Assembly (NCBI GenBank): GCA_937919225.1
Contig: CALFRH010000150.1
Span: forward strand, 1 to 35,602
Source: an uncultured Parvularcula sp.
GTDB lineage: Bacteria > Pseudomonadota > Alphaproteobacteria > Caulobacterales > Parvularculaceae
Direction: 5' to 3'
Length of the DNA stretch: 35,602 nucleotides
Made by a program: the position numbers and the translations under genes. Every line of letters begins with the position of its first letter. Within the stretch, counting starts at the first letter, position 1. The notes under the pieces were generated by a model. The model saw nothing but the letters and a program-made list of their open reading frames with translations. It ran no database searches and was not told the origin of the DNA. Positions 27,719 through 33,703 of the stretch are shown here, one piece after another.

Positions 27719-30337
27719 CTAAGCCACGCTCTCCAACGTCCGTTCGATCTTTTCAACGTCAAAGCATTCGATGACATCGCCAACTTTGAGGTCGTCATAA
27801 TTGGCAAAGCTCATGCCGCACTCCTGGCCCGCCGGGACGTCATTGACGTCATCCTTAAAGCGTTTGAGTTGGCTAAGCTCGCCCTCGTGGATCACGACAT
27901 TATCGCGCAGGAGGCGGACTTTCGAGCCGCGCTTGACCTGACCTTCGGTGACGCGACACCCCGCCACTTTGCCCAATTTGGAGATGTTGAAGACTTCCAA
28001 AATCTCAGCATTGCCAAGGAAGGTCTCCCGCAATTCGGGATCCAGCATCCCCGTGAGAGTGCCTTTGATGTCGTCAATAAGGTCGTAGATCACGGAGTAA
28101 TAGCGAACTTCAACGCCAGACTTCTCGGACTGATCCCGAGCCTGCTTATTGGCGCGGACATTAAATCCGACAACTGGCGCGTTCGACGCCTCGGCGAGGA
28201 TCACATCGCTTTCGGAGATCGCCCCGACACCGGTATGAAGGACGCGGACACGTACCTCTTTGTTGGACATCTTTGTCAGGGCCCCAACAATCGCTTCCAC
28301 TGAGCCCTGCACGTCAGCCTTGATGACAAGCGGTAGATCTTTGATCTCAGCATCTTGAAGCTGGGCCATCATCTGTTCGAGCGATGTACCAGAGGTGGCG
28401 GCGTTCGCCTTCTCCCGCTTGGTGCGCTGACGATATTCAGCGACCTCGCGAGCGCGCGCTTCTGAGTCCACCACAGCGAATTGCTCGCCGGGATCGGGCA
28501 CACCGTTAAGACCCAAAAGCTCCACCGGTTGTGCGGGCACGGCCTCTTTTACTTGTTTGCCCTGGTCGTTGATCAGTGCCCGTACCTTACCCCATTCTGA
28601 GCCAGCGACGATCACATCGCCGCGTTTGAGTGTTCCGCCTTGAACGAGGAAAGTGGCCACGGGCCCCCGACCTTTGTCGAGTTGAGCCTCAACAACCGTG
28701 CCAAAGGGCTGACGGTTTTTGTCGGCTTTGAGTTCCAGCAGCTCCGATTGCAACTGAATGGCTTCGAGGAGGCCTTCAATATTGATTTTCTTAAGGGCCG
28801 AAACCTCAACATCTTGCACCTCACCGCCCATGCTCTCCACCTGGAGTTCATGTTGGAGAAGGTCGGTCTTCACCCGGGTTGGATCAACGCCGGGCTTGTC
28901 AATTTTGTTGATCGCTACAATGATCGGCACACCTGCCGCCTTGGCGTGGTTAATGCTCTCAATGGTTTGAGGCATGACGCCATCGTCGGCTGCCACCACA
29001 ATGATGACAATGTCCGTCACCGTCGCGCCGCGGGCGCGCATAGCGGTAAAGGCCGCGTGGCCTGGCGTGTCGAGGAAGCTGATCAGGCTGCCGTCGGGTG
29101 CTTTGACTTGGTATGCGCCGATATGCTGGGTGATCCCGCCCGCTTCCCCCGACACCACATTCGCCGAACGGATGGCATCCAGGAGGGAGGTCTTTCCGTG
29201 GTCCACATGACCCATAATCGTGACCACGGGTGGCCGCGCGGTAAGGTCTGCGTCCGACGCATCTTCGGCAATCAGCCCCTCTTCCACATCCGCATCGGAA
29301 ACCCGTTTGACGGTGTGACCGAGATCTTCGGCAATAAGCTGCGCGGTATCCGCATCAAGGGAGGCGTTGGCCTGGACCATCTGGCCCTGCTTCATCAGTT
29401 CCCGGATGAGTTCAGTGGATCGCATGCCCATCCGTTTTGCGAGTTCCTGGACGGTGATGATCTCGGGGATCACCACTTCGCGGACTTGCTTGGCGTCGGC
29501 TGAGCCGCGTTTGGCCCGGGCCTGCTTTTCTCTTTCGCGGGCACGGCGCACCGAAGCGAGGGAGCGCTGGCGCTCATCATCTTCGAGGGCTTTGGCAATG
29601 GTCAGGCGGCCTGTCCGGCGCTTGGGCGCCTCTTTGCCTTTGCTTTCATTGTTCGCGCCAAAGTTCCGCTTTTGCTTGATGCGGCCTCCAAGGGCGGACA
29701 ACGGGTTGTCTTCGTCGCTGGCAAACGCTGCTTTTTCTTTGTCGCTGTCCTTCGTGCCGCTGGCGGAGGACAATCCTTTTGCTTTGGCTTCTTGGCGACG
29801 CTTGCGCTCTGCCTCTTCGGCTTCGAGAGCCTTTTGCGCCTCTTCCTCAGCTTTCTTGCGGGCCTCGGCCTCCTTGGCGCGCTTTTCTTCTTCTTCCTGC
29901 TGGGCTTTCCGCGCGGCCTCTAGGCGTGCTTTTTCCTCGGCTTCCCGGCGCTCACGGTCGGCCCGTTCCGCGGCCTCGCGCTTGGCTTTTTCCTCGGCCG
30001 CCTTTTTGGCAATGGCGAGGGCCTGAGCGCGTTTTTTCTGCTCAGCGTCTGATAGCTGACGCAGGACTTTAGGCCGGCCCTTGGGCTTGGCTTCCGCCGT
30101 GCCTGACGCGGCTGGAGCCACTTTCTTGGTGGCTGCCTTCTTCGTCACTACTTTTGGAGACGCAGAGGCGCCCGCCGCTGGGCCTTCACCCGGCGCGCGA
30201 ACACGGCGCTTCTTCTCCACGACCACCGTTTTGGTTTTGCCGTGGGGAAAGCTCTGCTTTACCGCGCCCGTCTCCGTTTTCTTCAGAGTCAGGGGGCGCC
30301 GCGCGCCTTGAGATTTTTCCTGCGTTTCGTCGCTCAT
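27719..30337 (-). CDS. infB: Translation initiation factor IF-2
   Basis: IF-2 is the GTPase that places initiator tRNA on the ribosome. The 872-residue product has a charged N-terminal part with the IF2-associated segments ([14 protein letters not shown]) and a long Ala/Glu/Lys/Arg coiled region (about 105-180). The G domain follows: [16 protein letters not shown] and NKIDKP. Beta-barrel domains follow, ending in the fMet-tRNA-binding C-terminal domain with [23 protein letters not shown]. The ATG at 30337 has GGAGA four bases upstream. It is the last gene of the rimP–nusA–ylxR–infB operon. rbfA and truB, which often follow infB, are not here. Confidence 0.97.
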
Positions 30338-30515: not shown

Positions 30516-31139
30516 TCACTTTTCTATAGGTGCTGCACCTGGATCGCCGGTGAAGGCTTGCCATCGGCGAAGGTCATAAAGGGCCCTTTCAGCGGCTTTC
30601 CCGGGCAAAAGACCCAAATGCACAACACCCACATCCCCAACAGCATGACTGAGCGTCCCACTGTCGACGGAAAGAGGGATATGGGGGACAGGCCCATGAT
30701 GCTCAAGCGCTTGGCTGATTTTTCTCACCCCGTCAGGGGCCGCATCATTGGGGCAGATGTAAGCTAAAAGGGATGCAGCTTTTGATCTGACGCTGTCAAA
30801 GCCCGCCACCAATTGGCCCGCCCGCCGTGCCAGGCCCAACTGGTTAAGGGCCTTGTCCTCTAAAAGGCGGCTGAGGGTATCGGCGAAGGCATCGGGCGTC
30901 GCCCCATCTGGCAGGGGGGTTGCGGCGCGAAAGCTTTTCGCAAAGGCGTTTTTCTTAAGCGCTGCGAGGAGGGTGCTTCTCTCAGCTGTTAGCCAGGCGC
31001 CACGTCCGGGAAGTTTTTCGCCGAGGTCCGGCACGAGGGTTTCGTCGGGACCCTGCACAAATCGAATAGCGAGGGCGCCGGGGGTAAGGCCCTCTCCCGT
31101 GGCGACGCAACGACGGTCATTATGGCGGGTTTTGGGCAT
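30516..31139 (-). CDS. ylxR: YlxR (DUF448)–L7Ae-like RNA-binding protein
   Basis: A two-domain protein of 207 residues. The N-terminal DUF448 domain has RRCVATGEGL, near the family signature R-x-C-(I/V)-x-(T/S), and LPGRGAWLT. The C-terminal L7Ae/L30e-like fold is marked by LGLARRAGQLVAGFDSVRSKAA. YlxR in Bacillus modulates RNase P (RnpM); the role of the fused alphaproteobacterial form is less clear but probably involves RNA binding in ribosome or RNase P function. The frame is open 93 codons further upstream through a palindromic repeat. I chose the ATG at 31139 because the domain begins there. nusA–ylxR–infB is the standard order. Confidence 0.88.
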   Translation of the reverse strand: MPKTRHNDRRCVATGEGLTPGALAIRFVQGPDETLVPDLGEKLPGRGAWLTAERSTLLAALKKNAFAKSFRAATPLPDGATPDAFADTLSRLLEDKALNQLGLARRAGQLVAGFDSVRSKAASLLAYICPNDAAPDGVRKISQALEHHGPVPHIPLSVDSGTLSHAVGDVGVVHLGLLPGKAAERALYDLRRWQAFTGDPGAAPIEK

Positions 31140-31360
31140 GGGGTGTTCGCTTTTCTGATCGTGCCGCTTTAGGCGTTCACCACGGCTTGTCCGTGGTGTC
31201 CAAAGCATCCAGTGCCAAATCTTAGGGTAGTGGGGCCCACGGACGCTGACGCGCCGTGGGGAACAATAATTGGCGGACAAAGGCGTGAGCCCATAGCTCC
31301 TTTCCGCCCAAAGATGGATCCCGGACATTGGCTTTACCAACGCCGAGGTGGCGGCACTTT
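31140..31360. repeat. nusA–ylxR gap with dispersed palindromic repeat, copy 2
   Basis: 31175-31201 is the exact reverse complement of 2107-2133 and forms the same CACCACGG/CCGTGGTG hairpin. It is followed about 40 bases later by CCCACGG/CCGTGGG (around 31235-31260), like the paired inverted copy at the first site. The pair interrupts an otherwise compact operon. No gene is seen; the leftward extension of the ylxR frame through it is judged untranslated. Confidence 0.75.
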
Positions 31361-32950
31361 TCAGCCCTCCACCGTTTCGGCGGCCTCCTCGCCTTCTTCC
31401 TCTTCGTCTGTGTCCCAACCGACTCGGCGGCGCGCTTCGGCAATCATGGTTTCGGCAAGATCAGGCTTCATACGGAACTTCTCAAGCATGCCTTCATAGT
31501 GCTTTTTCTCGCCGTCCACCCGCTCGGTCCAGCCGGTAAGGTCGTCCGCCACGCAGCCCGCGAAGTCCTCCAAGGTTTTCACCCCTTCTTCGGCGAGGGC
31601 GATCACCATTTTAAGGTTGAGGCCTTCCACCGTCAGAAGATCGTCAGCCACACCCATCTCCATGCGCTTGGCGTCGAGCTCTGCCCGTTCTTTTTCAAGC
31701 CATTCAAGGGCCCGGGCCTGAAGCTCTTCGGCGGTTTCCTCGTCAAAGCCTTCGATCTCGGCGATTTCTTCGATCTCGACATAGGCGATTTCTTCGATGC
31801 GGGTGAAGCCTTCCGCCACCAGAAGGTTCGCAATCATATCATCAACGTCGAGGACTTTCATGAAGAGGGCAGAGCGTTCGGCATATTCTTTCTGCCGTTT
31901 TGCGCCCTCTTCCTCTTCGGTCATGATGTCGATTTCATAACCCGTTAGCTGACTGGCGAGGCGAACATTCTGACCACGCCGACCAATGGCGAGGGAGAGC
32001 TGTTCGTCGGGAACCACGACTTCGATGCGTTCTAGTTCTTCGTCGAGGACCACTTTGGCCACTTCCGCCGGGGCGAGGGCGTTGACGACAAAGGTGGCTG
32101 TATCCTCCGACCAGGGAACAATATCGATTTTCTCGCCGCCCAGTTCGCCGACCACGGCCTGCACCCGGCTCCCCCGCATCCCGACGCAGGCGCCAACGGG
32201 ATCGATCGAGCTATCGTTGGAGTAGACGCCAATTTTTGCGCGGCTGCCCGGATCACGCGCCACGGCTTTGATTTCAATCACGCCATCATAAACTTCAGGC
32301 ACCTCTTGCTCGAACAGGCGGGCCATAAATTGCGGGTGAGAGCGGGAGAGGAAAATCTGCGGGCCTCGCGGCTCACGGCGCACATCGGCGATATAGGCGC
32401 GGACGCGGTCCCCTTGGCGCAAGGGTTCCCGCGGGATTTGCTGATCCCGGCGAATAATGGCTTCGCCTTTGCCAAGATCAACAATCACATGGCCATATTC
32501 AATGCGTTTAATGAGACCGGAGATCACCTCACCGATACGGTCTTTATAATCCTCATATTGATTATCCCGCTCGGCATCCCGGACCTTTTGGGTGATGACC
32601 TGCTTTGCGGCGAGGGCGGCCACTCTGCCAAAGTCCACCGGGGGCAGAGGGTCGGAGAGGAAGGCGCCGACTTCCGCCTCGGGGTTTTGTTTGAGGGCGT
32701 CTTTAAGGGCGATTTCCGCCGCTTCATTCTCGACCTCTTCTACCACTTCCATCAGGCGCCAGAGGCGGGTTTCCCCGGTTTGAGGATCAATCTCAGCTCG
32801 GACATTGGTTTCCTGCCCATAGCGAGAACGGGCAGCTCGGGAGAGGGCGTCCTCCATCGCTTCGATGACGATGGTTTTGTCGATCGATTTCTCTCTCGCG
32901 ACCGCGTCGGCGATTTGCATCAGTTCGATCTTATTGGCTGTGACGGCCAT
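31361..32950 (-). CDS. nusA: Transcription elongation/termination factor NusA
   Basis: NusA binds RNA polymerase and RNA, modulating pausing, termination and antitermination. The 529-residue product has the N-terminal polymerase-binding domain (KIELMQIADAVAREKSID), the S1 domain (about 135-205, including GEVISGLIKRIEYGHVIVDL), and KH1 with GACVGMRGSRVQAVVGEL. KH2 carries SLAIGRRGQNVRLASQLT. Two helix-hairpin-helix-like repeats then lead to an acidic tail ending EEEEGEEAAETVEG. AAGGAG precedes the ATG. It follows rimP by 12 bases. Confidence 0.96.
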   Translation of the reverse strand: MAVTANKIELMQIADAVAREKSIDKTIVIEAMEDALSRAARSRYGQETNVRAEIDPQTGETRLWRLMEVVEEVENEAAEIALKDALKQNPEAEVGAFLSDPLPPVDFGRVAALAAKQVITQKVRDAERDNQYEDYKDRIGEVISGLIKRIEYGHVIVDLGKGEAIIRRDQQIPREPLRQGDRVRAYIADVRREPRGPQIFLSRSHPQFMARLFEQEVPEVYDGVIEIKAVARDPGSRAKIGVYSNDSSIDPVGACVGMRGSRVQAVVGELGGEKIDIVPWSEDTATFVVNALAPAEVAKVVLDEELERIEVVVPDEQLSLAIGRRGQNVRLASQLTGYEIDIMTEEEEGAKRQKEYAERSALFMKVLDVDDMIANLLVAEGFTRIEEIAYVEIEEIAEIEGFDEETAEELQARALEWLEKERAELDAKRMEMGVADDLLTVEGLNLKMVIALAEEGVKTLEDFAGCVADDLTGWTERVDGEKKHYEGMLEKFRMKPDLAETMIAEARRRVGWDTDEEEEGEEAAETVEG

Positions 32951-32962
32951 GGGCGGTCTCCT

Positions 32963-33505
32963 TTAGTTCGTCTCGGAATGATTATCGTCGGTTGCACGTG
33001 CCTTCTCGGCGGCTTTGGACCGCCTAAGGCTTTCGGTGATGAGGTCGTCTGTCATCATGAGCTTCGCGCTTTGAATAAGAGCGAAGGGGATGAGGGCGGT
33101 GTCCTCCTCCCCTTGAAGGTCGATGCAAATATTGTCGTCTTCGGTGCCGGCGAGGGTGCCGCGGAACCGCTTTTGCCCCTCCACCAATTGGGTGAGTTCC
33201 AGCTTGGCTTCGAACCCTTCCCAGCGATCATAGTCTTTAAGCCGGGTGAGGGGCCGGTCGATACCGGGGGAAGACACTTCCAGCATATATTGATCCGGTA
33301 GCGGATCGGCATCCTCCATCACCACGGAAATGGCACGGGAGAGCTTGGCGCAATCCTCTGCCGTCATGGTGCCGTCGGGCCGCTCGGCCATAATCTGAAG
33401 GGTCTTGGTATTCGACCCCGACAGCCTGAGGCGCACAAGCTCGAACCCCTCCGCATCGATGATGGGGGTGAGCAGCTCCACAAGTCTGTCTTCTAACGGG
33501 GTCAA
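32963..33505 (-). CDS. rimP: Ribosome maturation factor RimP
   Basis: RimP is needed for maturation of the 30S subunit. The 180-residue product starts at TPLEDRLVELLTPIIDAEGFELVRLRL, the usual RimP opening. It has LYxLEVSSPGIDRPL-like sequence (YMLEVSSPGIDRPLTRLKDY). The C-terminal SH3-like domain follows (GTLAGTEDDNICIDL). I chose the TTG at 33505 because GAGG lies seven bases upstream and the domain starts there. The upstream in-frame extension runs through a terminator hairpin and is not credible as protein. It leads the rimP–nusA–ylxR–infB operon. Confidence 0.92.
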   Translation of the reverse strand: MTPLEDRLVELLTPIIDAEGFELVRLRLSGSNTKTLQIMAERPDGTMTAEDCAKLSRAISVVMEDADPLPDQYMLEVSSPGIDRPLTRLKDYDRWEGFEAKLELTQLVEGQKRFRGTLAGTEDDNICIDLQGEEDTALIPFALIQSAKLMMTDDLITESLRRSKAAEKARATDDNHSETN

Positions 33506-33537
33506 AATGGCCTCATTTTCATATGGTCTCAGGCCAC

Positions 33538-33580
33538 AAAAAAAGCGGCCTCGGAAGAGACCGCTTTTTGTTTTCCGAGG
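33538..33580 (-). terminator. Intrinsic terminator with competing antiterminator in the rimP leader (attenuator)
   Basis: On the minus strand GCGGTCTC (33564-33557) pairs with GAGGCCGC (33552-33545) around TTCC, with one G·U pair. It is flanked by five A and followed by seven T (33544-33538): a textbook intrinsic terminator 33 bases ahead of the rimP TTG. Just upstream, CCTCGGAA (33580-33573) is the exact reverse complement of TTCCGAGG (33556-33549), which spans the loop and half of the terminator stem. The two folds exclude each other. Confidence 0.72.
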
Positions 33581-33703
33581 TGTGCCCTCCAATTAGGCGC
33601 AAAGTGCGGCCTTGTCACCCCTTTTGCGCAAAAAGCGGGCGTTAAGGTCGCGCTGGCCTCGCCGTTGCATGGAAGCATGACGCCTTGTAACCGCAACCTT
33701 ACT

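Follow-up and report, generated by a model that had tools for sequence, protein, structure and literature searches.

Several reports describe premature termination ahead of rimP and nusA in bacteria. Naville and Gautheret (2010; PMC2965389) named the rimP-leader, an intrinsic terminator in the leader of rimP-nusA-infB that lies 4-130 nt from the gene; its passages on this leader see no visible antiterminator in the general form, propose NusA as the factor involved, report a tandem upstream terminator only in several Gammaproteobacteria, and mention no larger conserved element. In the case of Bacillus subtilis, the leader of the nusA operon is described in PMC12288461 as an autoregulatory attenuator that works by NusA-stimulated intrinsic termination. 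In Escherichia coli, according to the account in PMC6511841, the metY-rimP-nusA-infB leader contains the terminators t1 and t2 before rimP, together with a tRNA gene, several promoters and RNase III sites, and NusA has a role in regulating its own expression. By title and abstract, a literature search turned up no paper devoted to the rimP leader of Alphaproteobacteria; cases from this class may figure in the species lists that supplement PMC2965389.

In this study, we have analysed the leader of the same operon in an uncultured Parvularcula sp., within a stretch of DNA of 35,602 nucleotides that is referred to as the window. Judged by its sequence, the window resembles the rimP-leader of PMC2965389 in having an intrinsic terminator in the rimP-nusA-infB leader, at a distance (39 nt) that falls inside the published range. 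The class-wide alphaproteobacterial form carries the GGGc/gCCC stem motif, whereas in the window and its genus GCGGYC/GGCCGC takes its place. Since GGGc/gCCC was found in none of nine genus leaders, but in 16 of 26 other leaders of the family and in 38 of 52 class-wide ones, the window element is best described as a positional orthologue with a diverged stem, that is, a rimP-leader attenuator by position and operon and a diverged genus-level variant by stem motif. A further difference is that many relatives of the window add a second hairpin, P1. Compared with E. coli, the window has a single promoter-like pair and a single terminator; in the E. coli leader sequence we found two hairpins with T runs, the rimP-proximal one (TGGGCTTTAGGCCC followed by T7) being close to the class-wide form. 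With the B. subtilis attenuator of PMC12288461 the window shares a terminator in the nusA operon leader, on which NusA would act by analogy, and differs in that its terminator is as strong as ordinary ones.

The Rfam family RF01770 (rimP) represents a leader of the same operon, yet the window scores below its gathering cut-off. No match above the cut-off was found in 61 genomes, nor in the window, and among 14 control genomes only E. coli gave one; the four sub-threshold matches all came from one genome (G043), where they lie tens of kb from rimP or on a contig without it. The window element is not RF01770. Known riboswitch and leader families gave no match at gathering scores in the window and the loci of 11 relatives; the window contains one tRNA, and its weak Rfam matches all lie below the cut-offs.

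The leader hairpin and the promoter-like pair

The Pfam domains of RimP, NusA, YlxR and IF-2 follow each other in that order on the minus strand, which bears out the operon rimP–nusA–ylxR–infB named in the original prediction:

32963-33505, minus strand: rimP, first gene of the operon, TTG start (Pfam RimP_N, DUF150_C; start aligned with congeners)
31361-32950, minus strand: nusA (Pfam NusA_N, S1, KH_5)
30516-31418, minus strand: open reading frame containing ylxR, with ORF bounds and predicted start (Pfam YlxR)
27719-30337, minus strand: infB, encoding IF-2 (Pfam IF-2, GTP_EFTU)

The leader lies between rimP and a divergent glycosyltransferase gene that runs on the plus strand from about 33704. 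The window RimP shares 74% identity with its counterpart in Parvularcula lutaonensis, which places the window in Parvularcula or a close relative; no species nearer than this by RimP identity was found. Its assembly, made up of 695 contigs, has a size of 5.4 Mb, where about 3 Mb is usual for the genus, and a contamination of 5.69%; it may be mixed, although it has only one RimP copy.

The following elements make up the hairpin:

33557-33569, minus strand: 5' arm of the terminator, AAAAAGCGGTCTC (folding and sequence inspection)
33553-33556, minus strand: terminator loop, TTCC (sequence inspection)
33540-33552, minus strand: 3' arm of the terminator, GAGGCCGCTTTTT (folding; a terminator-like hairpin is found here in 130 of 135 leaders)
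33538-33544, minus strand: T7 tract of the terminator, overlapping the 3' arm and beginning 39 nt before the rimP start

The A-flanked 8-bp stem described originally, GCGGTCTC/GAGGCCGC, is correct and includes one G-U pair; once the A-T pairs are added to these eight G+C-rich pairs, the hairpin 39 nt ahead of rimP comprises 13 bp, with its TTCC loop and T7. The 88-nt stretch around it folds at -37.5 kcal/mol, compared with -22.0 (sd 3.2) for dinucleotide shuffles (z -4.9). Two other placements of the hairpin were ruled out. As rimP and the glycosyltransferase gene are divergent (minus and plus strand, respectively), it is not a 3' terminator shared by converging genes. Nor does it lie within the RimP coding frame, which as an ORF can open upstream to 33592, because the congener RimP aligns from the TTG at 33505 and the distance from hairpin to start varies. 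Through its A5 tract, the hairpin (33538-33569) is a possible terminator on the plus strand too, where TTTTTGTTTT follows it; in the congeners, the A residues adjoining the stem number only one to three. Between terminator and rimP, at 33502-33522 on the minus strand, there is also a six-codon frame (ATG AAA ATG AGG CCA TTT TGA) whose stop overlaps the TTG start of rimP, making translational coupling possible.

Upstream of the hairpin, a promoter-like pair can be recognized:

33613-33618, minus strand: GTGACA, -35-like hexamer of the promoter predicted for the operon ([GAC]TGACA occupies this position in all nine genus leaders)
33591-33596, minus strand: -10-like hexamer CTAATT, after a 16-nt spacer, a poor match (assigned by its position relative to the T-tract in the genus)
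33583-33588, minus strand: region of the predicted transcription start (deduced from where the -10 lies)

The genus leaders considered are the nine with a detected terminator, the window among them. All nine have their best -10-like hexamer ending 45-49 nt ahead of the T-tract, and their promoter-like pairs reach a mean best match of 8.0 out of 12 consensus letters versus 5.6 in shuffles. The pairs are poor, none of the nine reaching 10 of 12; that of the window has 7 of 12, with CCTAAT, one base upstream of CTAATT, as an alternative -10. A stricter pattern, TGACA-N16-19-TAnnT, occurs in 8/9 genus leaders, 16/26 other leaders of the family and 8/21 of the Caulobacteraceae group (shuffles, 0.25%), and in 1/13, 0/6, 0/34 and 0/12 leaders of the remaining groups. 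The predicted geometry in the window places the start near 33585 and the T-tract near +42, for a released RNA of about 45-51 nt. A transcription start between hairpin and rimP, named originally as an outcome that would refute the prediction, is unlikely: in the tightest congener (L003) the T-tract starts only 18 nt before the RimP start, and a promoter between the two was rejected for lack of room. A promoter overlapping the hairpin is still formally allowed.

Conservation of the terminator and its likely regulation

Of 61 related genomes, 58 yielded a RimP, and named loci from public genomes were added to these. From the resulting 142 loci, four without a RimP match (L059-L062) and three with less than 80 nt upstream were dropped, leaving 135 leaders to be scanned. 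A hairpin followed by a T-tract, on the rimP strand and at most 160 nt from the start, is present in 130 of them with no energy cut-off applied, the weakest having -6.4 kcal/mol (L123); these 130 are not independent cases, as some species occur twice (L003 and L063, for example) and at least one call is misplaced (L086). The combination is missing from five leaders (L015, L120, L126, L127 and L142), three of which (L015, L120 and L142) keep a G+C-rich hairpin without a clean T run. L015 belongs to a congener (G008), where the rimP hairpin is followed by TTCTTCG in place of the T run; this terminator may have decayed.

The conservation extends far beyond the genus. In a class-wide sample of one genome per family, RimP was found in 101 of 114 genomes, of which 60 (the most similar ones, leaving out G000 and G038) were used. 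Across these 60 alphaproteobacterial families, a terminator that reaches -7 kcal/mol is present in 52 of the 60 leaders, as against 15.7% of shuffles, and 43 have one at -10 kcal/mol or better, against 7.3%. On the reverse strand, where the scanned stretch was longer, 13 of 60 pass at -7 kcal/mol. As a background, in 400 kb of the congener G004 a terminator-like site lies at most 150 nt upstream of 38 of 349 ORFs, or of 30 once the sites just after a same-strand stop are removed. Hairpin strength in the genus (median -14.7 kcal/mol) is close to that of 55 ordinary 3' terminators of G004 (-15.5), with a similar T run, and among the five groups with a computed median the Rhodobacterales group alone has weaker hairpins (-10.3). 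An interruption after five to seven T residues is seen in the genus leaders, yet it is also common among the control terminators.

Genome-wide searches with two models gave further information on the locus. Model R1 (E<=0.1) found a match in 28 of 60 genomes, and its best match was the rimP leader in 12 of 13 Parvularculaceae genomes, the window's own included, and the second-best in the remaining one (G011); as all 13 were in its training alignment, R1 shows locus specificity only. Model R2 (E<=0.001) matched in 10 of 115 genomes. Its best match by far lies directly ahead of rimP (G105); another does so as well (G142), a third lies about 320 nt before rimP (G168), four are away from it (G117, G120, G122 and G125) and three are unplaced (G102, G119 and G181).

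The letters of the stem, and not pairing alone, are conserved. GCGGYC/GGCCGC is found in 9/9 genus leaders and in 2 of 222 terminator-like sites in the 400 kb of G004, and GGGC/GCCC arms in 38/52 class-wide terminators and in 11 of the same 222, many of which are surely not real terminators. The commonest class-wide form is GUGGGCC...GGCCCAC followed by T6GTT. Within the family, one stem pair alternates between C-G (18 sequences) and G-C (16), an alternation that links the genus and class-wide forms of the stem.

The attenuator that had been proposed in the rimP–nusA–ylxR–infB leader is supported by this conservation of the terminator and by the promoter-like pair upstream. What can be read in the sequences is the hairpin, its persistence among relatives, the pair ahead of it and the absence of promoter room in the tightest congener. 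A point on the other side is that a terminator of this strength, placed behind the one promoter in sight, seems to call for some means of relief. We consider it reasonably likely that the hairpin is an intrinsic terminator acting as the rimP-leader attenuator of this operon, in a form that has diverged in this alphaproteobacterial genus, with NusA as the likeliest regulator through negative feedback. RNA polymerase would start at 33583-33588, make about 45-51 nt and fold the hairpin about 40 nt past the start. The hairpin would release part of the transcripts, the read-through fraction setting the output of rimP-nusA-ylxR-infB, and NusA, the product of the second gene, would when abundant raise termination. 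From the comparison with known systems, protein-dependent attenuation is probably the mechanism, with NusA feedback. We infer termination in vivo, a regulated read-through and NusA as its agent; the choice of NusA as effector follows E. coli and B. subtilis. In B. subtilis, terminators that require NusA and NusG tend to have weaker hairpins, as stated in PMC8060035, and a distal interruption of the U-tract is a further trait of NusA/NusG-dependent terminators. NusA dependence through a weak hairpin is unsupported in the genus: its hairpins, not clearly weaker than the ordinary terminators of G004 (medians above), speak against a simple model of stimulation by NusA.

The same terminator might instead answer to a factor other than NusA, such as RimP, NusG, a ribosomal protein or the speed of the polymerase. 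The retention of letters in both stem arms across families would suit a protein that reads sequence, and RimP is also named as a hypothesis in PMC2965389; the support from other bacteria, as given in PMC12288461 and PMC6511841, points to NusA, and we regard another factor as unlikely. Alternatively, the hairpin could be a constitutive damper or insulator, a fixed leak lowering the operon, or a block to transcripts arriving from upstream, without any regulation. The strength of the hairpin agrees with this, and with the A5 tract of the window it looks bidirectional and could also stop plus-strand transcripts. Nevertheless, the promoter-like pair lies upstream of the hairpin, so that the operon itself would be attenuated, and the specific stem motif exceeds the needs of a generic terminator; we find such a role quite unlikely, and retain attenuation with NusA as the likeliest regulator.

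The proposed antiterminator

The original prediction combined the terminator with an upstream strand able to disrupt it:

33573-33580, minus strand: CCTCGGAA, 5' strand of the proposed antiterminator (exact complement of 33549-33556; not conserved in 8 congeners)

This segment, which falls within about +4 to +16 of the predicted transcript depending on the start, is indeed the exact reverse complement of TTCCGAGG (33556-33549), comprising the loop and GAGG; both folds need TTCCGAGG, and thus terminator and antiterminator exclude each other, as had been claimed. In a switch of this kind, CCTCGGAA would pair with TTCCGAGG, the polymerase would read through, and some signal would pick the fold. 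An exact 8-nt complement of the loop plus 3' arm within the upstream 25-60 nt appears in 0.2-0.8% of 2000 dinucleotide shuffles, a figure uncorrected for the earlier search across the whole window; by duplex energy the same pairing is unremarkable (2.9-17% of shuffles).

The complementarity should have persisted in close relatives, and it did not: it is kept in none of the eight congeners, whose longest complements measure 2-5 nt, with all shuffle fractions at 0.37 or above. Over the 130 leaders, six, including the window, have a complement at p<=0.05 (200 shuffles each), which is the chance rate. The other leaders with an 8-nt complement are L084 and L111, both of the Rhodobacterales group, the hairpin call of L111 being over-extended. 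The antiterminator was consequently rejected as a conserved element.

Folding of the growing transcript shows what the pairing could do in the window itself. With the 3' end at 33549 or 33547, the predicted best fold is the 8-bp helix whichever of the three starts is taken, and at 33546 this holds for two of them; the helix could thus arise before the terminator and hold it back for a time. At the first T of the tract, the terminator base pair already has a probability of at least 0.96 and the antiterminator one below 0.04; from 33541 on, the values are at least 0.998 and at most 0.0004. In these calculations, the pairing of CCTCGGAA could briefly slow the terminator and should not hold it open alone. 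For several Gammaproteobacteria, PMC2965389 reports a further terminator in tandem upstream, along with a potential antiterminator, which lends the switch some precedent; still, the finished terminator wins overwhelmingly, no ATG, GTG or TTG for a leader peptide exists between 33588 and the T-tract, and no Rfam family other than a tRNA reaches its cut-off in the window. With the pairing absent from all eight congeners, we hold a terminator/antiterminator switch to be very unlikely. The complementarity is probably an accident of sequence, or else a transient fold particular to this lineage, rather than a conserved switch.

A second hairpin in the leaders of relatives

Many relatives have a second hairpin, P1, directly upstream of the terminator and without a T-tract. 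Its form in Parvularculaceae is UUUCGA...UCGRAA or close to this, with 3' A residues that overlap the A-U base of the terminator. When single sequences are folded, P1 ends at the terminator in seven of eight congeners, the exception being L004, and it is individually significant against shuffles in only 1/9 genus leaders. In the alignments, changes on both sides affect 5/8 P1 pairs in the Caulobacteraceae group (21 leaders), 6/11 in the Rhodobacterales group (33 leaders) and 3/3 core pairs in Parvularculaceae (35 leaders), the last being weak with one sequence each. In each of the three alignments, the covariation scores and the cells with changes on both sides lie above every one of 500 shuffles, whereas the number of pairs changed on both sides is unremarkable in the Rhodobacterales (8 vs 6.7 in shuffles). 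For the whole structures, sliding the partners lowers the paired cells from 87-94% to 31-59%. Each structure came from the very alignment on which it was scored, which biases these values in its favour; a second set of alignments was made without L086 and L027, whose hairpin calls are misplaced or over-extended.

Class-wide, structure in excess of shuffles is found in the 36 nt preceding the terminator (mean z -0.87, SE 0.20, n=52) and in the 48 nt preceding it (-0.58, SE 0.18); no excess is found in the nearest 24 nt (-0.19, SE 0.14) or in the far stretches at 52-100 nt (0.11, SE 0.12) and 102-150 nt (-0.24, SE 0.20). In the near set, which is not made of independent cases, the 24 nt before the terminator reach -1.23 (SE 0.12, n=130), with -0.27 (SE 0.10) and -0.14 (SE 0.11) in the far stretches. 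The six leaders of family f2 have no P1 (mean z 0.09).

Two groups show a recognizable element at this place. In the Rhodobacterales group (L079-L138; for instance L103:2390-2469), the rimP leaders have in common a 5' element with strong structure, which reads CAACAGCGGCG-[covarying stem]-CUCCACCGGRAA and precedes a GGGCC/GGCCC-like terminator; it gave no Rfam match at the two loci scanned (L093 and L103). In most leaders of the Caulobacteraceae group (L036, L041, L045, L076-L117), a conserved ACAUCG and a GCGCUGGAUAGCGC-like hairpin adjoin the rimP terminator.

The window leader appears to be without P1, its 5' segment sitting in the place of P1 without forming it. A P1 made of GAGG...CCTC (33589-33577) folds on paper and is probably not transcribed whole, since the predicted starts lie within or after GAGG. 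A joint reading would be that many alphaproteobacterial rimP leaders are two-hairpin devices. In such a device P1, variable in sequence, conserved in structure, near the 5' end and often abutting or overlapping the base of the sequence-conserved terminator, would fold first, either protecting the terminator against misfolding or serving as a pause hairpin stimulated by NusA. In the window lineage P1 would have been lost, and the 5' segment there would pair with the loop and 3' arm of the terminator, as a transient kinetic antiterminator that makes a strong terminator leaky. This reading is speculative and, in our estimation, distinctly improbable. No description of P1 was found among the titles and abstracts of the literature, nor one for Alphaproteobacteria in the passages of PMC2965389 on the rimP-leader. 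P1 seems of more interest than the proposed switch.

All together, comparison of the leaders indicates that the terminator first described in the window stands and that its antiterminator does not: a neat alternative fold of one genome can be missing in the congeners examined, and a conserved second hairpin is visible only through comparison. The unusually conserved sequence of the stem invites a direct test for a protein that reads it. A core operon, serving ribosome maturation and encoding NusA and IF-2, would be tied to premature termination over much of a bacterial class.
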